The notes beneath the pieces were generated by a model. That model searched no databases, was not told the origin of the DNA, and worked only from the letters and a program-made list of their open reading frames with translations. 64,000 nucleotides of DNA, taken from NCBI RefSeq assembly GCF_004104055.1, contig NZ_QOVJ01000001.1, positions 186,001 through 250,000 on the forward strand, read 5' to 3'. This document shows positions 4,385 to 12,055 of this stretch, piece by piece; positions within the stretch are counted from its first letter, which is position 1; every line of letters begins with the position of its first letter. The position numbers were made by a program, and so were the translations under genes. The DNA is from Leeuwenhoekiella aestuarii. GTDB taxonomy: Bacteria > Bacteroidota > Bacteroidia > Flavobacteriales > Flavobacteriaceae.

Positions 4385-5566
4385 TTACAAATAGTCTTTT
4401 AGTATTTTTTCTATTTTGCTCTGGTCAAATCCGGACTCTAGAAAAACAATATTTCCTTTTTTATCGAGAATCATAAATGTTGGTGCTGAACCTATAGAAA
4501 AATTAGCAGCAATCTCTTTGCCTTTGTAAAGTGTGGAATAGTTAATCCCTATTTTAGAAATATACTCCAGTAAGTTTTTTCTCGGATCATTTTCGTGAAA
4601 TTCAACACCGTACATTAAAAAATCTTCATTTTTATATTTTTCATTCATTGAATTCAATTGCGGTATAGCTTTAACACAAGGCCCACAGAACTTAAACCAA
4701 AACTCCAGTAAAACTACTTTTCCTTCGAATGTAGAAAAGTCAATTAATTCGTCGGTTTTTAAATTTGGTATTTTCCAATCTGTGATTTTTCTTTTGCCGA
4801 TTTCATTTTTATTTCCTTTTAAGTTTGAAGTCATTTTTGCTTGCATACGATTATAATATTCTTCAAACGTGATTTTTTCATAATCAGACGAAAACTGATT
4901 TCCAGACCATATGTCTCCATCAACTACATAATTGAAATCTAAATTATCATAAGTACTACTTATGCTACCAGTATCGCCATTTGGCATAATCATTTTTGTG
5001 GGTAAATAACTTAACTTATCTACCATTAATAAGTAATTGGACTGAAAATTTGCCTCAGGAAAATACGTTAACGTTAATTTATTAAAATCCAGATAACCAT
5101 TTTTGAAGCTGAGTTCAAACACATAATTTTTCGAATTATTTATTAGAGTGTCCTTTTTTCTAGAAATCGTAACATTTTTATTTTGTAGCATTTGAGGTAA
5201 TAATACCTTAATAGAATACAAACTTAAAAGCAAAGGGTTGTTGACATTGGGCTTATTATTTGTAACTATTATTTTTTCATCTGATAGCGACATAATATGC
5301 CTCTGACCATCAAAAATTAATTCCATTTCATCTTGTTCAAGATAATATCTTGGAGTCGTTGTTGTATTTCTAAAATCAAAAAATACCGAAGCATCGAATT
5401 CTTGAAATGTAACACCACTTTCAATAGACTCATTCTTGGTTTGATAATGAACTGTTTCAATTTTGTTTAATTCGTCTATAGTTGTCATTAAAATTTGACG
5501 ATCAGATTTTTGACAGTAACCACTTAAGGTAAGTATGAGGGCTGCCAAGCAACTTAATTTCTTCAT
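4385..5566 (-). CDS. TlpA/ResA-like thioredoxin-domain protein, secreted
   Basis: With the ATG at 5566 the protein has 393 residues and begins with a signal peptide (MKKLSCLAALILTLSGYCQ), which is why this start is preferred to the ATG at 5635, 23 codons upstream. Residues about 25-260 are an unrecognised all-beta periplasmic region. Residues about 270-393 form a thioredoxin fold with FKFCGPC (active Cys 294 and 297) and the cis-Pro motif SAPTF. Bacteroidota combine such domains in periplasmic thiol-disulfide proteins; the substrate is unknown. The gene is visibly AT-richer than its neighbours: 5101-5160 and 5221-5280 contain 16 G+C each of 60, against 27 of 60 at 6001-6060. That suggests recent acquisition. 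Confidence 0.8.
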   Translation of the reverse strand: MKKLSCLAALILTLSGYCQKSDRQILMTTIDELNKIETVHYQTKNESIESGVTFQEFDASVFFDFRNTTTTPRYYLEQDEMELIFDGQRHIMSLSDEKIIVTNNKPNVNNPLLLSLYSIKVLLPQMLQNKNVTISRKKDTLINNSKNYVFELSFKNGYLDFNKLTLTYFPEANFQSNYLLMVDKLSYLPTKMIMPNGDTGSISSTYDNLDFNYVVDGDIWSGNQFSSDYEKITFEEYYNRMQAKMTSNLKGNKNEIGKRKITDWKIPNLKTDELIDFSTFEGKVVLLEFWFKFCGPCVKAIPQLNSMNEKYKNEDFLMYGVEFHENDPRKNLLEYISKIGINYSTLYKGKEIAANFSIGSAPTFMILDKKGNIVFLESGFDQSKIEKILKDYL

Positions 5567-5678
5567 TGGATTCAGTTGTGTTTTGATTTTATCTAAAAAA
5601 GAACTGTATTTAAGTGTGATTTTTTTTAAAGACAATTTTCTCTTTCGAAAGTTGCAAAATTCAACACTGAGAAATTAT

Positions 5679-5686
5679 CAAAAGTA
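5679..5686 (-). promoter_or_regulatory. Possible -7 element upstream of the TlpA-like gene
   Basis: Reads TACTTTTG on the minus strand, matching TAnnTTTG, about 113 bases before the chosen ATG at 5566. It would give a leader of about 105 bases. The distance makes this tentative. Confidence 0.3.
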
Positions 5687-5696
5687 TCTCGGCTAT

Positions 5697-6917
5697 TTAT
5701 TCTTCTTCCTCGCCATCTGCCATAAAGATCTCCCGATTGAGTTTATCGCGGCGTTCCCGGGCCAGCCTTAAAGTAGGATCGTACTTCGCATATTTTCCGT
5801 CCTCGTATTTTTTTATGAATTCTTCGTAAAGTTTTAAAACAGTACGGCGGTCTTCATAATAATTATCTGCGACAACAACTTTAGTGTATTCAGCTTTTTT
5901 GTTATCAGGATCTTCTTCTAAAGACCGGTTTACATACTTCATCGCATTTTTCCAATCCTTTTTCATCTCGTACGTACGAGAAAGCGTATAATACGCGTCA
6001 CCCAAAGGGTGGTCTTTATATAGAATTGCCAATAAACCGTGGGTTTCAGCAGCCTTTAGATCTTCTGTAAAATTATATAATTTGGCAAGCGTTGCATGCA
6101 CATAATCATCTTCTGCTGAAAACTCTAAAGCGCCTAAATACTGTTCTATTGCATCCTCATAACAGCGCTTTTTATAATACAAATTCCCTAGCTTTTCTCT
6201 GATAAATTGGGTGTCTTGCCCCAGTTCTAAAAGCTTTTCAAACCATTCGATTCCTTCTTCATTCCATCCTTTATAATAATAACTTTGAGCCAGCGTACTT
6301 ATAATTTCAACATTTGTAGGGTAACTTTCCAAAGCTTTGAATGCCAATTTTTCGACCATTCCGTATTCTTTTTGCTTTAAATAATGCACCGTAAGTTCTC
6401 CAAGCGCTTTTTGATGGGTACTGTCTAAAGCAACAGCTTGTTTATAATCTTCAATATATGGATGATATTTATCTAGTTGTTTTTCAAGAACGCTATCTGC
6501 TGACTTTATATTTATATTTTGCGGTCGATTTTCATTGGCCCTACCCCGCTGGTAATAAAAATCCGGGTTGGTATCGTAAACTGAAATCAATTCTGAAAAA
6601 ACACTGTCTGCCGCTGCAAATTTACGTTTAGTGATGAGTAACTTTCCATACTCGTTCATAGCAATTGCTTCATCAGTGCTGGTTGCGGCTAATTTGTAAT
6701 TAGCCAAAGCATCATCAAGTGTGCCTTTGGCCTGATGCGCACGTGCCAACTTCAGATAGACTGATTCCTTTTTATTCTTAATCTGCTCATAGTTAGCTAT
6801 TGCCTTGCTATAGTTTCCCACAGCATACAAACTGTCACCAACGGCCAAAGCCGAAACGTTTTGAGCTTCGGCCCGGCTGGCTAGTACTAAAAATACAACT
6901 AGATAAAAACTTCGCAT
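5697..6917 (-). CDS. Secreted tetratricopeptide-repeat protein
   Basis: 406 residues with a signal peptide (MRSFYLVVFLVLASRAEAQ), followed almost entirely by TPR helices. Recognisable repeats start near VGDSLYAVGNYSKAIANYEQ, ARAHQAKGTLDDALANYK, LAQSYYYKGWNEEGIEWFEK and LGNLYYKKRCYEDAIEQYLG. The C-terminus is acidic (MADGEEEE). TPR proteins act as protein-binding scaffolds, here in the periplasm. It is the last gene of the operon with the BlaI-like repressor, M56-TonB protein and TonB-domain lipoprotein, starting 9 bases after the lipoprotein stop. It may be the effector or a partner of that system; this is inference. Confidence 0.85.
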   Translation of the reverse strand: MRSFYLVVFLVLASRAEAQNVSALAVGDSLYAVGNYSKAIANYEQIKNKKESVYLKLARAHQAKGTLDDALANYKLAATSTDEAIAMNEYGKLLITKRKFAAADSVFSELISVYDTNPDFYYQRGRANENRPQNINIKSADSVLEKQLDKYHPYIEDYKQAVALDSTHQKALGELTVHYLKQKEYGMVEKLAFKALESYPTNVEIISTLAQSYYYKGWNEEGIEWFEKLLELGQDTQFIREKLGNLYYKKRCYEDAIEQYLGALEFSAEDDYVHATLAKLYNFTEDLKAAETHGLLAILYKDHPLGDAYYTLSRTYEMKKDWKNAMKYVNRSLEEDPDNKKAEYTKVVVADNYYEDRRTVLKLYEEFIKKYEDGKYAKYDPTLRLARERRDKLNREIFMADGEEEE

Positions 6918-6926
6918 GTATTCTTT

Positions 6927-7559
6927 TTAAGGTTTTACATCATAAATTATAGGTTGTGTATACAGCGCTGCCATGGGCTTACCCTTGTGTTTACCGGGTT
7001 TCATTTGTGGTAAACTTTCTAACAAATGTTTAGCTTCAGCACTTAAGGCCTTATTAGAATCATTTCTGATTTTCACATCTTGAATGTTTCCTTGGGTGTC
7101 AATTAAAAAGCTGGCTGTCATTTCATAACGACCGCGTACCTTAGAATTCTTATATACTTCCGGATTAAAATAAGTGTTTACATAAGCTGCGACTGCCTCT
7201 TCTGTGCAAGCGCGTCTTAGTTCCATATCCGCATCATCGCACGAATTATAGTAGGGCGGTTCTGTTATGGAATTAAACTCAACCCGATCTCTACCCAAAT
7301 CATCAAAGTCAAAAGAATTATTGGGATCACCCGCTTTGATGAAAGGTTTAAAAGCTTTATTTGTGACCAGTTCATTTAAACTCTTCAAATGAGCTTGCTC
7401 TTTCTGAGTTAATTCTGATTTTGCTGCTAATGTTGCTTCAAGATCGGCTACTTTTTCTTCAAAAGAAAGCTGAGCAATATCTTTCTTCTCAGATTCTGAA
7501 GCGCAAGAAAGGATAGCACAAATAAAGCTTAAACCAACTATTTTACTAACTAATCTCAT
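6927..7559 (-). CDS. TonB C-terminal-domain lipoprotein
   Basis: 210 residues with a lipobox (ICAILSC, lipidated Cys at about 19). A coiled-coil-like segment follows (LSFEEKVADLEATLAAKSEL), then a TonB C-terminal-type domain: ACTEEAVAAYVNTYFNP, then AEAKHLLESLPQMKPGKHKG and the final YTQPIIYDVKP. The layout of lipidated or anchored Cys, then LxxEExVAxLEA, then the TonB domain closely repeats the periplasmic half of the M56 protein encoded 11 bases upstream, so it is probably a detached duplicate of it. It has no Pro-rich periplasm-spanning segment and no inner-membrane helix, so it is unlikely to be a working energy transducer. It may bind TonB-box-like peptides or modulate the M56 sensor. 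Confidence 0.75.
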   Translation of the reverse strand: MRLVSKIVGLSFICAILSCASESEKKDIAQLSFEEKVADLEATLAAKSELTQKEQAHLKSLNELVTNKAFKPFIKAGDPNNSFDFDDLGRDRVEFNSITEPPYYNSCDDADMELRRACTEEAVAAYVNTYFNPEVYKNSKVRGRYEMTASFLIDTQGNIQDVKIRNDSNKALSAEAKHLLESLPQMKPGKHKGKPMAALYTQPIIYDVKP

Positions 7560-7570
7560 CTTCTCGAATT

Positions 7571-9013
7571 TTAGTTTGTTTGAAATACAATCGGAAGCGA
7601 ATACAGTACGCCTACTTGTTTTCCATTATGTTTCCCTGGGCTTAACTGTGGTAATTGACTTATCACACGTTCTGCCTCTCTTGCCAATTCAGGCGCTTTG
7701 GCTCTTGATTCTATATCTACGATCTTACCATTTTCGTTTATTCGAAATCTTGTATAGATTCTTTGTATCCCTTTCAACCCTAACTCTTTCCCTAATTTGG
7801 TATTAAAATTTCTATTTACATATTGAGAAACGTGTTCAGACATACATTTTTTACGTTCCTCATTGGTATTCAAACTTTCACACCCAGGGAAAACAGGAAC
7901 CTCCTCAATAACTGCGAAAGGAACATTTTCAAGTTCTTGATCATTTATATTAAATTCTGACACTTCTATTATCTCTTCACGTACTATTGGTGGCGGAGGT
8001 GGTGGTGGCAATGCACCTTCTGTTTTTTTAATTGCTTTATCAAAAAGACCTCCTACTAGAAGGCGTTCTTCCTCACTTATTTCTTCTTTTGAATCAATAA
8101 TAGCCTCAAGTTCTGCAACTTGTTCTTCTAATGTAAGAGCTGTATTATTCTGAGCGACTTCATTGTCATCAGTACAGCCCACATAAGTCAGAATTCCGGC
8201 TATCATGGGAATAAGGATTAAATATTTGAGTCCGGCTCTGTGTTTACTTTGTTTTTGTAACATAACTATTCGTTTTTTGATTAATGAATGATTGAAAAAT
8301 GTATTGATAAAAGAAATCTCCTGCGTACCAAAAGCGGTATTGAGCAACTGATTGTAATACGATTTCTTTTCGGTCTTTTTAGTAGCCTGAGCATCGGCAA
8401 TAAACTCATGCAACTCGGCTACTTTATTCTGATAGATATACACCAGTGGATTAAACCAGAATACCACACGCAGCATTTCAAAAATGAATAGGTCAACCCC
8501 GTGTTTATGCTTTAAATGCACTTCTTCATGCGCCAAAATGTGTGCTTTAGCTTCCGCAGAAATTTTATCTCCTAAGAAAATGGTATTCAAAAAGGTAAAT
8601 GCAGCATCACTGTTAGGGATCTTGATTATACGATGGTCTGACTTTTGCCTGAACCGAAAGTAGCGTTGAACTTCCTGATATTTTCTAAATAACATTCCCG
8701 TGCTAAAGAACACACCCGCTGCATATAACAACAAATAAATACTCCAGTCTGTTTCTTGTTGAATAGGGTCTACAGCAACATTTTGATTTTCTGCAGATAC
8801 TACGACCTCCGGCAGAAAATAAATATTTTGAGCTATTGGAAGTTGGTTCTGAAAAATTTCAAACTGCATAAAAGGTAACGCAAAAGCAAGTAATGCAGTA
8901 CTGATCAGATAGACGCGATTGACATTAAAAAATGTCTCTTTACGTAACCAAATCTGGTACACTGCCAGAAACAAGGCCTGAAAAACAATGACTTCGAGTA
9001 TATACTTTACCAT
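7571..9013 (-). CDS. M56 (BlaR1/MecR1-type) membrane peptidase fused to a TonB C-terminal domain
   Basis: 480 residues. Hydrophobic segments near 5-20, 35-50, 90-108 and 265-280 give the BlaR1-type membrane part. The cytosolic loop carries the zinc-peptidase motif HEEVH (162-166) and a downstream ELHEFIADA (200-208), as in M56 peptidases that cleave BlaI-type repressors. After the last helix come a LEEQVAELEA coil, a run of seven Pro (336-342) and a TonB C-terminal-like domain (about 370-480) with FPGCE, LPQLSPGKHNG and YSLPIVFQ. BlaR1 has a penicillin-binding domain at this place, so the sensed signal must differ. It follows the repressor gene by 2 bases. Domain calls are firm; the ligand is unknown. 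Confidence 0.88.
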   Translation of the reverse strand: MVKYILEVIVFQALFLAVYQIWLRKETFFNVNRVYLISTALLAFALPFMQFEIFQNQLPIAQNIYFLPEVVVSAENQNVAVDPIQQETDWSIYLLLYAAGVFFSTGMLFRKYQEVQRYFRFRQKSDHRIIKIPNSDAAFTFLNTIFLGDKISAEAKAHILAHEEVHLKHKHGVDLFIFEMLRVVFWFNPLVYIYQNKVAELHEFIADAQATKKTEKKSYYNQLLNTAFGTQEISFINTFFNHSLIKKRIVMLQKQSKHRAGLKYLILIPMIAGILTYVGCTDDNEVAQNNTALTLEEQVAELEAIIDSKEEISEEERLLVGGLFDKAIKKTEGALPPPPPPPIVREEIIEVSEFNINDQELENVPFAVIEEVPVFPGCESLNTNEERKKCMSEHVSQYVNRNFNTKLGKELGLKGIQRIYTRFRINENGKIVDIESRAKAPELAREAERVISQLPQLSPGKHNGKQVGVLYSLPIVFQTN

Positions 9014-9015
9014 GA

Positions 9016-9375
9016 TTAATCGTCTTTATTAATTTCTTTTAAAATAGACTCCAGTTCGCTGGCACTCATTTCTTTTTTCTTGACGAAAAAAGAAACCATA
9101 CTCTTAAAACTTCCATTAAAATAATCATTGACCATCTTAGACATCGAAGCACTGCTGTAATCTGATTTTTTCACCAACGGAAAGTAGATATGCCCTCTAC
9201 CCTCTTTTCTAAATCCTACAAAAGATTTAGTCTCCAAAATTCGGACGATCGTAGATACCGTATTGTAGGCCGGCTTAGGCTCTGGCATTTCGTCAAGAAC
9301 AGCTGCTACATTAGCTTCTCCCAGATCCCATAGAATCTGCATTACCTCTTCTTCTGCTTTGGTTAATTGTTTCAT
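9016..9375 (-). CDS. BlaI/MecI/CopY-family transcriptional repressor
   Basis: 119 residues, the usual length. The N-terminal winged helix is typical: LTKAEEEVMQILWDLGEANV, then PKPAYNTVSTIVRILETKSFV as the recognition region and RKEGRGHIYFPLVKKSDY as the wing. The C-terminal part (about 80-119) would dimerise and carry the cleavage site used by the cognate M56 protease. It is the first gene of a four-gene operon with the M56-TonB sensor. A near-perfect 37-bp palindrome covers the promoter just upstream, which implies autorepression of the operon. The family also includes copper and beta-lactam regulators, but the neighbours show neither a beta-lactamase nor a copper pump. Confidence 0.93.
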   Translation of the reverse strand: MKQLTKAEEEVMQILWDLGEANVAAVLDEMPEPKPAYNTVSTIVRILETKSFVGFRKEGRGHIYFPLVKKSDYSSASMSKMVNDYFNGSFKSMVSFFVKKKEMSASELESILKEINKDD

Positions 9376-9418
9376 AATTTTAAACTAGTTAGGGATTAGT
9401 AATTGTTTTTGATTCATT

Positions 9419-9460
9419 CAAATATAACTAATTTATTAGTTAAACTAACAAATTAGTTAT
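9419..9460 (-). promoter_or_regulatory. Promoter and palindromic operator of the BlaI-like operon
   Basis: Positions 9424-9460 form a 37-bp palindrome with only one mismatched pair on each arm apart from the centre. It consists of two overlapping copies of AACTAAnnnATTAGTT-type sites sharing the central TTAGTTAAACTAA. On the minus strand a TATATTTG (-7) lies at 9426-9419 and a TTTG (-33) at 9452-9449, with a 22-base spacer, so the operator covers the whole promoter. The -7 element is about 44 bases before the repressor ATG. Confidence 0.75.
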
Positions 9461-9538
9461 GGAAATTTTAAAATAATTTATTTGAGGTGTCAGTTTTATT
9501 ATCGACAACTCGTTCAATTTAAGTAAATTACGGTAAGT

Positions 9539-10336
9539 CTAAGCGCCTACAGTAATACTTACTACATATCCTTCAGAATTGCGTACGTTAAAAACCGTAC
9601 CATCTTCAAATAGCAAATATTGACCTTTTATACCTTTAAGCTTTCCTTGGTATTCTGGTGTTTTTTCCAGATTGAGGCTTTTTAATTTTGTAGGATACTG
9701 CAATACCGGGAACTCGATATTGGTTTCCGAATTACTCGCTATATAATACTCTAGTGCTTCTTCTGGGATGTATTGCTTCAGCGCATCGCGTTGCGCAACC
9801 AGATCTTCATCTTCAATCTCATTTTTTAGCATTTTACGCCAATTCGTTTTATCGGCTATATGCTCTTTAAGCGCGACTTCAGTAATTCCTGCAAGGTAGC
9901 GGTTAGGCACTTCAACAATTTCTATCGCCTCATGCGCCCCCTGATCTATCCATCGTGTAGGTACTTGCGTTTTACGCGTCACTCCTACTTTTACATTACT
10001 AGAGTTAGCGAGGTATACAATATGGGGTTGCAACTGTACTTTTTTCTCATATTCCAGATCGCGATCTTCTTCGTCTAGATGTGCTTTACTAAGTTCTGGA
10101 CGCATAATCCAATCTGCTGCCTGTGGCACTTTATAAAAATCGTCATAACAAAAACCCTGACGGTAAATCTTCTTATTTTTTCCGCAAGCCAGACACTGAT
10201 ATTTTAAAAATTCAATACGTATTTCTTTATCGAGTAACTGATTTACGTGAATAAAATCGTTCTCAAAAACCATATAATATTGAATAGGGTTATCAAGTTC
10301 GGTTTGCATTTTTGTAAGTACGCCTTGGTATTGCAT
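9539..10336 (-). CDS. DUF2797 family protein
   Basis: 265 residues, cytosolic, with no signal peptide. It has the DUF2797 pattern: a Cys cluster near the N-terminus (YQCLACGKNKKIYRQGFCY, about 46-64) that may hold zinc, then YLANSSNVKVGVTRKTQVPTRWIDQGA, resembling the start of a GIY-YIG-like fold, and a C-terminal beta-rich region (LKGIKGQYLLFEDGTVFNVRN). The family's function is not established; NRxT-type cores suggest nucleic-acid contact. It is a single gene, divergent from the GH3 gene. No promoter matching consensus was found in the 189-base divergent gap. Confidence 0.8.
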   Translation of the reverse strand: MQYQGVLTKMQTELDNPIQYYMVFENDFIHVNQLLDKEIRIEFLKYQCLACGKNKKIYRQGFCYDDFYKVPQAADWIMRPELSKAHLDEEDRDLEYEKKVQLQPHIVYLANSSNVKVGVTRKTQVPTRWIDQGAHEAIEIVEVPNRYLAGITEVALKEHIADKTNWRKMLKNEIEDEDLVAQRDALKQYIPEEALEYYIASNSETNIEFPVLQYPTKLKSLNLEKTPEYQGKLKGIKGQYLLFEDGTVFNVRNSEGYVVSITVGA

Positions 10337-10525
10337 AAAATTGAAAGCTATTGAATTGTTTCAGTTAAAAAAACGGTATTTTTAGACCTGCTTTTTTGTT
10401 GAAAATGAAATTTTTTAGTCTTAGGTTTTTCTCAAAAACGCAAAATCATTGAGATCAAACTGCCTGAGAAAATAGATTGATTTTGAAATAATCCACCTAA
10501 ATTAGCACTCAAATATACTAACAAA

Positions 10526-12055
10526 ATGCCGATACCTTTAGTCAATTCTATTGCCAGCTGGTTTCTTAAAAAGAGAATTCATCAGATGGAATTGTTTCTA
10601 AAATATCCTCACGATGTTCAAAATGAACTGCTTCTAAAATTGGTTCAAAAAGCTAAAAATACCGAGATCGGTAAAAAAAACGGCTTTAAAGACATTCGCA
10701 GTTATAAAGATTTTGCAGAGCAAGTACCGGTTAGTAATTATGAAGCTTCTCACGATCTTATAGAACGCGCTAGACGCGGTGAGAACAACATCTTCTGGCC
10801 TTCACCCGTAAAACTCTTTGCACAAAGTAGCGGTACTACAAATGCAAAGAGTAAATACATTCCGGTTAGTCCGGAATCTTTAGAAGACTGTCATTATGCA
10901 GCCAGTAAAGATTTACTCTGCACCTATTTAAACAACAATCCTGATTCTCAATTATTCACAGGCAAAAGTTTACGCCTGGGCGGCAGCAAACGCTTATATG
11001 AAAGCAACGGTACTTCTTATGGAGATCTATCTGCGATCCTGATAGACAATATGCCTTTTTGGGCAGAATTTAGCAGTACTCCGGGTAATGAAGTCTCTTT
11101 AATGAGTGATTGGGAAGTCAAAATGCAAGCGATTGTTCAAGAAACCATACAAGAAAAAGTTACGAGTCTTGCCGGCGTTCCCTCCTGGATGTTGGTTTTA
11201 TTAAACAACACGCTTGAGACCACCGGTAAAGATCATTTATTTGAAATCTGGCCCAATCTGGAAGTATACTTTCATGGCGGTGTGAGCTTTGAACCGTATC
11301 GGGATCAGTACCGAAAAATTTTACCCAGACACAACTTTAAGTATTACGAGATCTATAATGCCTCAGAAGGCTTCTTTGCGATTCAAGACAAAAACGGATC
11401 GAGTGACCTTTTATTGATGCTGGATTATGGTATTTTTTACGAGTTCATCCCTATGAATTCTTACGGACAACCCGATCAAAAAATCATCCCGCTTTGTGAA
11501 GTTGAAAAAGGAAAAAACTATGCGATTGTTATCACTACAAATTCTGGTTTGTGGCGTTACCGTGTAGGCGACACTGTTCGGTTTACATCTATAAATCCAT
11601 ATCGTATTCGTGTAAGTGGCAGAACGAAGCATCACATCAATGCATTTGGTGAAGAGTTGATTATAGAGAATGCAGAACAAGCACTTAAAAAAGCTACTGC
11701 ACTTACAAATTCTGAGATTGTAGACTATACCGCAGCCCCTATTTTTATGCATGGTAAAGAAAAAGGGGCACATGAGTGGTTTATAGAATTTAAAGAGCTT
11801 CCTGCAGATAAAGAAGAATTTGACAGATTGTTTGACAAAGCACTTCAAGAGATCAACAGTGATTATGAAGCTAAGCGAAAAAATAATATGACTCTAAACC
11901 CACCAACGATTCACTATGCGCGTACCAATCTATTTTACGACTGGTTAAAATCAAAAAATAAGCTGGGCGGACAACATAAAGTACCTCGCCTTAGCAACAG
12001 CAGAGAACTTGTTGAAGAATTACTAACTCTAAACAGCTGTTATAAAGAAAGTTAA
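10526..12055 (+). CDS. GH3 auxin-responsive promoter family protein (acyl-adenylate/amido synthetase)
   Basis: 509 residues, cytosolic. GH3 proteins belong to the ANL adenylating superfamily; plant members join amino acids to jasmonate or auxin. Visible signatures are the phosphate loop LFAQSSGTTNAKSKYIPVS, YEIYNASEGFFAIQD, and LWRYRVGDTVRF with SGRTKHHINAFGEEL, the hinge and C-terminal subdomain. Bacterial homologues are frequent in Bacteroidota, but their substrates are unknown. It is a monocistronic gene; the ATG at 10526 is preceded by AACAAA without a Shine-Dalgarno sequence, as is usual here. Downstream lies a decayed-gene region. Family call is firm; the reaction is inferred only at the level of ATP-dependent acyl activation. 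Confidence 0.9.
   Translation: MPIPLVNSIASWFLKKRIHQMELFLKYPHDVQNELLLKLVQKAKNTEIGKKNGFKDIRSYKDFAEQVPVSNYEASHDLIERARRGENNIFWPSPVKLFAQSSGTTNAKSKYIPVSPESLEDCHYAASKDLLCTYLNNNPDSQLFTGKSLRLGGSKRLYESNGTSYGDLSAILIDNMPFWAEFSSTPGNEVSLMSDWEVKMQAIVQETIQEKVTSLAGVPSWMLVLLNNTLETTGKDHLFEIWPNLEVYFHGGVSFEPYRDQYRKILPRHNFKYYEIYNASEGFFAIQDKNGSSDLLLMLDYGIFYEFIPMNSYGQPDQKIIPLCEVEKGKNYAIVITTNSGLWRYRVGDTVRFTSINPYRIRVSGRTKHHINAFGEELIIENAEQALKKATALTNSEIVDYTAAPIFMHGKEKGAHEWFIEFKELPADKEEFDRLFDKALQEINSDYEAKRKNNMTLNPPTIHYARTNLFYDWLKSKNKLGGQHKVPRLSNSRELVEELLTLNSCYKES

Follow-up and report, generated by a model that had tools for sequence, protein, structure and literature searches.

In the 64,000-nt stretch of Leeuwenhoekiella aestuarii DNA analysed here (the window), a 37-bp near-perfect palindrome in all likelihood comprises two tandem operators of the BlaI-type repressor whose gene lies just downstream, placed over the promoter of an autoregulated operon whose repression would be relieved by an M56 peptidase. 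At the level of sequence comparison, the double site, its placement at the predicted promoter, its conservation and its tie to blaI are all established.

Operator units, promoter and operon

By direct reading, the palindrome spans 9424–9460, is odd-centred at position 9442 and has 9435/9449 as its sole mismatched pair, as the first-pass annotation had described (Table 1). It is composed of two 16-bp palindromes of the form AACTAA-N4-TTAGTT (9426–9441 and 9443–9458), with one base between them and a centre-to-centre distance of 17 bp; the earlier reading of two overlapping AACTAAnnnnTTAGTT sites is corrected accordingly, the two units being separate. On the minus strand the order is AACTAATTTGTTAGTT-T-AACTAATAAATTAGTT, followed immediately by ATATTTG. 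A leader sequence ahead of the start codon, ACTAATCCCTAACTAGTT, was considered as a third operator and rejected, its halves lying 9 bp apart and not 6. Four other palindromes with arms of at least 14 bp occur in the window (at 2399, 28512, 31702 and 42927); these have G+C-containing stems and T runs, and are probably ordinary terminators.

Table 1. Features of the blaI operon and its operators in the window, and related genes and sites outside it (contig:position)
Feature	Position	Strand	Basis or remark
-7 element, TATATTTG, Bacteroidota type (TAnnTTTG), abutting operator 2	9419..9426	-	orthologous loci
Palindrome	9424..9460	.	37 bp, 17/18 pairs
Operator 2, promoter-proximal, AACTAATAAATTAGTT	9426..9441	-	pattern match and conservation, 69 loci
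Operator 1, promoter-distal, AACTAATTTGTTAGTT	9443..9458	-	pattern match and per-position conservation, 69 loci
TTAG, inferred -33 element within operator 1, 18-bp spacer	9445..9448	-	58/59 promoters
TTTG, -33 element of the first-pass annotation, 22-bp spacer	9449..9452	-	2/59 promoters
blaI-type repressor gene, 119 aa	9016..9375	-	Pfam PF03965
M56 (BlaR1-type) peptidase, HEEVH motif, C-terminal TonB_C	7571..9013	-	PF05569, E 4.6e-15
TonB_C-domain protein, lipobox-like N-terminus; operon membership probable	6927..7559	-	
TPR protein; operon membership probable	5697..6917	-	match in 48/80 loci
Thioredoxin-like (TlpA/ResA-type) protein; operon membership uncertain	4385..5635	-	
Second BlaI paralogue, helix ATTTIAT, double TCTACA-N2-TGTAGA operator	C1:1339792-1340133		L009, L108
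Third BlaI paralogue, HYNTVST type, AACTA-N6-TAGTT sites 20 bp apart	C5:15183-15521		L007, L118
36-bp double palindrome, 20-bp spacing	G000:C3:339778-339813		L319; counterparts L318, L320, L322, L326, L328
Single site in GLPGLI cluster	C1:385968		
Single site in GLPGLI cluster, second unit at 18-bp spacing	C12:7664		
Single AACTAATTTTTTAGTT site, 43 bp before presumed CarboxypepD_reg start	C9:86691		L004
Single site about 200 bp before gene with TonB receptor plug domain	C5:90696		
Single site about 90 bp downstream of S41 peptidase/TPR gene	C2		

Bacteroidota promoters have the consensus TAnnTTTG/TTTG. The -7 element that had been placed at the palindrome edge, TATATTTG at 9419–9426 on the minus strand, stands: the blaI start codon lies 51 bp past its first base, and in 51 of 69 orthologous loci it directly follows the proximal operator and shares the operator's last T, with TAnnTTTG at or near the same place in 59 of the 69. 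Among these 59 promoters, TTAG of the distal operator is found at a -33 distance of 18–20 bp in 58 (in one also at 22), whereas TTTG occurs at a spacer of 17–23 bp in two. The TTTG at 9449–9452, which had been taken for the -33 element, is a local feature of the window whose slot is occupied by TTAG of the distal operator, and a widely shared TTTG element at -33 is ruled out. Because TTAG is located in the distal operator and TATATTTG abuts the proximal one, a dimer on the distal operator would cover -33 and a dimer on the proximal operator would touch -7. The site therefore does lie over the promoter of the repressor operon, as first proposed, with two conserved palindromic dimer sites of about 16 bp abutting TATATTTG in a promoter that is itself predicted.

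The blaI product matches Penicillinase_R (PF03965; E 4.6e-32, 111 bits against a cut-off of 22.6, residues 4–116) and the MecI structures 1sd6 and 1okr (phmmer E 3.3e-13 and 8e-13), and carries the helix AYNTVSTIVR and the wing EGRGHIYF. In the M56 protein, a TonB_C domain at residues 420–478 takes the place of the penicillin sensor of BlaR1; a Pfam scan at E 0.001 gave no transpeptidase family, and matches to the NCBIfam BlaR1 models are confined to residues 149–275. None of the seven neighbouring proteins scanned (4385–12055) matched a beta-lactamase family. An M56 match is present in 80 of 80 orthologous loci, in some not immediately behind blaI, and the HExxH..H peptidase signature was found in 61 of 80 by a motif search in which some locus sequences end inside the gene. 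At six loci (L011, L023, L026, L030, L059 and L084) the best M56 match lies about 1.7–2.2 kb behind the blaI start, either because of an extra gene or because a second, diverged M56 copy stands between. MecI and BlaI of staphylococci are cleaved at an Asn-Phe pair, which aligns with Phe-Phe in the window protein (Phe for Asn). The SFF segment aligned to this cleavage site is present in 79 of 80 orthologues, the exception being L066, which has an early stop.

Paired palindromic operators over a regulatory promoter are the layout of BlaI and MecI in staphylococci and Bacillus licheniformis. MecI/BlaI of Staphylococcus aureus and BlaI of B. licheniformis belong to the same PF03965 family, and there too the repressor gene adjoins an M56 peptidase gene. 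The window system differs in that the M56 protein ends in TonB_C with no penicillin-sensor match, unlike BlaR1, and in that its proteins fall well short of the scores that NCBIfam requires for MecI, BlaI and BlaR1. PMC7253601 gives the MecI/BlaI operator as TACA/TGTA, whereas the window half-site is AACTAA (core CTAA/TTAG), the window operators nearly touch, and the TACA-type operator belongs to another paralogue. The same source gives the operator of the copper repressors CopY/CopR as RNYKACANNTGTMRNY, a 16-base site per dimer with two operators per promoter (PMC7253601), and on that account these members of the same repressor family resemble the window in both unit length and operator number. 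Thus, of the earlier description of the site as longer and AT-richer than the staphylococcal operators, AT-richer holds and longer does not, each dimer unit being 16 bp, the CopY operator length in that source. The window operator lacks the TACA core, however, and the repressor reaches 50 bits against the NCBIfam CopY_TcrY cut-off of 122; since the 119-aa protein has no cysteine, it has no CxC motif.

Conservation of the double site with blaI

One scan of genome contigs gave 382 loci, and the best 80, each having a blaI orthologue, were searched up to 4 kb upstream for two ACTAAN4TTAGT sites 16–19 bp apart, allowing two mismatches in 20 bases. Identity is 87–99% in the eight best loci, and the nearest named relatives are Leeuwenhoekiella species. 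A double site was found upstream in 69 of the 80 loci, within 300 bp of blaI in 62, at a spacing of 18 bp in 56 and 17 bp in 13; shuffled upstream regions yielded none in 1600. Over the whole 642,460 bp of these loci, the double sites number 69 and all sit upstream of blaI, 62 within 350 bp and seven at 0.5–2.6 kb; such a distance, seen in 7 of the 80 loci, would be expected where genes other than blaI come first in the operon. At the outer ends of each site, an A and a T that the search pattern does not include are invariant in all 69 loci, whereas the inner four bases vary, and the unit is therefore AACTAA-N4-TTAGTT. Only 10 of 80 loci show the upstream neighbours known from the genus, DUF2797 and GH3, so synteny alone does not explain retention of the site. 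Besides the pair, a third exact site lies within 120 bp of the start codon in 13 of 80 loci.

The pattern search found no double site in 11 of the 80 loci, ten from Aquimarina and one from Ulvibacter (L066). In the Aquimarina loci an M56 gene lies upstream of blaI, and three of them (L034, L038 and L069) have two exact single sites 45–46 bp apart ahead of the M56 gene, around promoter-like sequence; no site was found in the other seven, in four of which the sequence examined begins inside the M56 match. In the Ulvibacter locus the blaI frame from 4001 has a stop at codon 16; either the repressor gene has degenerated and its site has gone as well, or the assembly is wrong at this point.

Starting from the site, 199 family genomes (198 genera) were searched for the exact double site, its units separated by one or two bases; it was found in 104 and not found in 95, relative to 0 of 199 for the reversed control. 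A single copy is the rule among the 104, with four exceptions. Forty-five distinct copies were examined (30 loci returned and 15 chosen, including multi-copy genomes and variants; one copy was met twice), and 40 of them stand 13–141 bp ahead of a blaI homologue. Of the remaining five, three precede related hydrolase genes (L284 and L296 were scanned, and L290 is 51–57% identical), that of L296 being followed by a lumazine-binding-like gene; the other two share a genome (G216), where one precedes an esterase gene and one a gene for an unassigned 635-aa protein. In all 13 Leeuwenhoekiella genomes the double site precedes the orthologous blaI; its spacing is 17 bp in 10 (control, one match in 13 genomes) and, at the same gene and with 0–2 mismatches, 18 bp in the other three. 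The 18-bp scan of the genus at up to three mismatches gave 11 matches against 41 for the control, and from it only matches with 0–2 mismatches were used.

With a PF03965 gene and its M56 partner behind the site, and with the double site tied to blaI both from the gene and from the site, the sequence comparisons support the autorepression that the first-pass annotation had suggested, and the double site is very probably a real autoregulatory switch.

Recognition helices, paralogues and operator spacing

The operator class of 180 BlaI-family genes (the 80 loci, 24 genus paralogues, and 76 from 80 phylum genomes, 44 of which have the family) was taken as the best of five palindromes in the 300 bp upstream, with at most one mismatch; ten weak or partial PF03965 matches (E above 1e-7) from the phylum draw, and L106, were left out. 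As a description, operator sequence follows recognition-helix class across these genes (Table 2), and since the palindromes were chosen from the same upstream sequences, the table is not an independent test. A tree from which the helix columns were left out requires six changes among the five operator classes, the minimum possible being four; because the classes are protein clades, the association rests on few independent events. A residue-level code for operator choice was rejected, as no residue could be named from six class changes and only one to three independent pairs. Two genes, L192 and L193, fall within the TACTA-operator clade on the tree, yet have AYTT[IV]MS helices and TACGA-type operators; this may be an independent switch of specificity.

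Table 2. Recognition-helix class and upstream palindrome in 180 BlaI-family genes
Helix	Operator palindrome	Genes
NTxS[TS]	AACTA-N6-TAGTT	83/107 (23 none, 1 other)
TTxAT	TCTACA-N2-TGTAGA	19/21 (2 none)
TTxLK	TACGA-N6-TCGTA	12/12
TTxM[TS]	TACTA-N6-TAGTA	16/25 (2 TACGA, 4 tied, 3 none)
NASVRT	TGTTA-N6-TAACA	2/2
TTLAS	none of the five	4/4
other	helix classes of one or two, or no class	9

The L. aestuarii genome has three blaI-type genes. The second paralogue (C1:1339792), like the window gene, is of the BlaI family with an upstream double operator, but its site is of the TACA type, and in its helix class the operators are spaced 27 bp in 13 of 21 genes and 20 bp in six, with no pair in two. The third (C5:15183) has the helix core and the AACTA-N6-TAGTT half-site in common with the window gene; it differs in operators 20 bp apart, in a wing of GKTH as opposed to GRGH, and in having further conserved double sites at other places in the genome. 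Spacing was measured in 109 genes with [NS]TxS[TS] helices (78 from the 80 loci, 31 from elsewhere) as the distance, between 16 and 24 bp, of the best two AACTA-N6-TAGTT sites with at most three mismatches in all. Genes with a GRG wing showed a spacing of 17 bp in 11, 18 bp in 41 and no pair in six; those with a G[KNRT][TSQ][HY] wing, 20 bp in 20 and no pair in seven; and those with other wings, 17 bp in one, 18 bp in 10 and no pair in 13.

This difference bears on whether the window operator is bound mainly by the HYNTVST paralogue, or by both repressors in cross-wired circuits. That reading draws on the same NTxST helix core and on the AACTA-N6-TAGTT sites at the paralogue's own promoter, and we regard it as improbable: where a gene has the paralogue's wing, all 20 detectable pairs show a spacing of 20 bp, as opposed to 17 or 18 bp in 63 of 63 at window-type orthologues and two similar genes, and the double site stands before the window gene's orthologue in all 13 genomes of the genus examined. 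Since 61 of the 63 pairs are in the 80 orthologous loci, the difference in spacing is largely one between two related groups.

An RNA hairpin, either the terminator of the upstream minus-strand DUF2797 gene or a leader structure, is very unlikely. The minus strand could form a 17-pair hairpin (about -17 kcal/mol over a 71-nt stretch, z -5.2), and the palindrome lies 79 bp past the DUF2797 stop (9539). However, the stem is not G+C-rich, a T run is absent and a terminator scan of 9300–9600 found none; the palindrome is kept in loci without DUF2797 and lies upstream of or at the predicted transcription start. Only 14 of 69 loci have two spacers that pair along their full length, which argues that a long hairpin is not the conserved feature, and the mean complementarity of the spacers is 0.53 against 0.48 in shuffles, 40 of 2000 of which were as high, a slight excess.

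A chance palindrome in AT-rich intergenic DNA has a negligible probability: although single AACTAAnnnATTAGTT matches at up to two mismatches are as common in the window as expected from shuffled sequence (7 against 6.4) and fewer in the whole genome than those of the reversed pattern (159 against 273), so that a lone match means little, the palindrome's 18-bp arms at no more than one mismatch exceed the maximum of 14 in 40 dinucleotide-preserving shuffles of the whole window, and phylogenetic conservation of the double site already refutes this reading.

Proposed switch and possible further targets

For the autoregulated operator pair, binding, repression, cleavage and signal are what we infer. 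Two BlaI dimers would bind the two 16-bp AACTAA-N4-TTAGTT sites side by side; between them they would occupy the promoter, beginning at the -33 slot and ending at the border of the -7 element. The operon repressed in this way would be blaI-M56/TonB_C-TonB_C lipoprotein-TPR, and the repressor, by shutting it off, would limit its own synthesis. By analogy only, an envelope signal would activate the membrane M56 peptidase, which would cut BlaI near the conserved SFF segment, so that BlaI would leave the DNA and the operon would be switched on. The inducing signal is probably not a beta-lactam, since the sensor ends in TonB_C and shows no penicillin-binding domain; that the sensor is linked to TonB-dependent transport is a guess.

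In open-licence literature surveyed by titles and the starts of abstracts, we found no paper on this operator, on BlaI operators of Bacteroidota, or on BlaI together with GLPGLI. As an operator the site is well conserved and tightly spaced; it belongs to a known repressor family and to a sequence class of which we found no description. It supplies a DNA address for a widespread BlaI branch, in an operon without a beta-lactamase gene, and with the address known, the regulon becomes readable from genomes and testable. The helix-class table in turn enables operator prediction for much of the BlaI family.

A search for the 20-bp arrangement, at up to two mismatches, found it 29 times across Leeuwenhoekiella, in 13 of 13 genomes, and gave none for the control. 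Fifteen of these precede the HYNTVST paralogue, by position (13 of 13 genomes, two at 0.7–0.9 kb upstream); ten, spread over 10 of the 13 genomes, closely resemble one another in sequence; three stand at or close to a cluster of GLPGLI genes (one of them checked), and one is unassigned. From this distribution, the half-site has further targets, and the 20-bp-spaced ones point to the paralogue. In six loci read, including that at C3:339778-339813, the closely similar site is a 36-bp double palindrome 8–12 bp before the start codon of a conserved gene of 332–336 codons, likely a target of the HYNTVST paralogue.

Where the first-pass annotation had looked to a genome scan for the rest of the regulon, the 17-bp double site occurs once in the L. 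aestuarii genome at up to three mismatches; other targets seem few, and may belong mostly to a paralogue. The 13 Leeuwenhoekiella genomes together have 49 exact single AACTAAN4TTAGTT sites, 22 of them at blaI, whereas the reversed control pattern gave 41. As a regulon class they were rejected, the 27 away from blaI being fewer than the 41 of the control and hence not enriched. These 27 comprise six in one place, seven beside GLPGLI genes (among these L244 is below the family cut-off and L248 was assigned by similarity to L005) and 14 in neither group. The six lie upstream of a CarboxypepD_reg gene adjoining an OMP_b-brl_3 gene (L004 by Pfam, the others by similarity), where the AACTAATTTTTTAGTT site is found in 6 of 13 genomes (L004, L219, L222, L224, L234 and L239). 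The L. aestuarii genome has five exact single sites away from blaI (Table 1) and 11 GLPGLI genes, and the sequence context of these five is suggestive of an envelope regulon.

It is possible, if doubtful, that the GRG-wing and GKTH/GNTH-wing paralogues are kept apart by the 17–18-bp as opposed to 20-bp geometry, and that at least one of them, with TonB-ending M56 sensors, governs outer-membrane genes (GLPGLI and CarboxypepD_reg-type) in Flavobacteriaceae. If this were true, a BlaI-BlaR1 circuit would perform beta-lactam-independent, TonB-linked envelope sensing, with operator spacing as an address code. A spacing difference on the same half-site offers a simple model, open to test, for the way in which repressors that arose by duplication escape cross-talk. 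In the GLPGLI/thioredoxin cluster on C12 (L005, L312), double sites of both kinds occur, at 5917-5952 with 20-bp spacing and at 7664-7697 with 18-bp spacing, and this cluster is possibly common to two BlaI paralogues.
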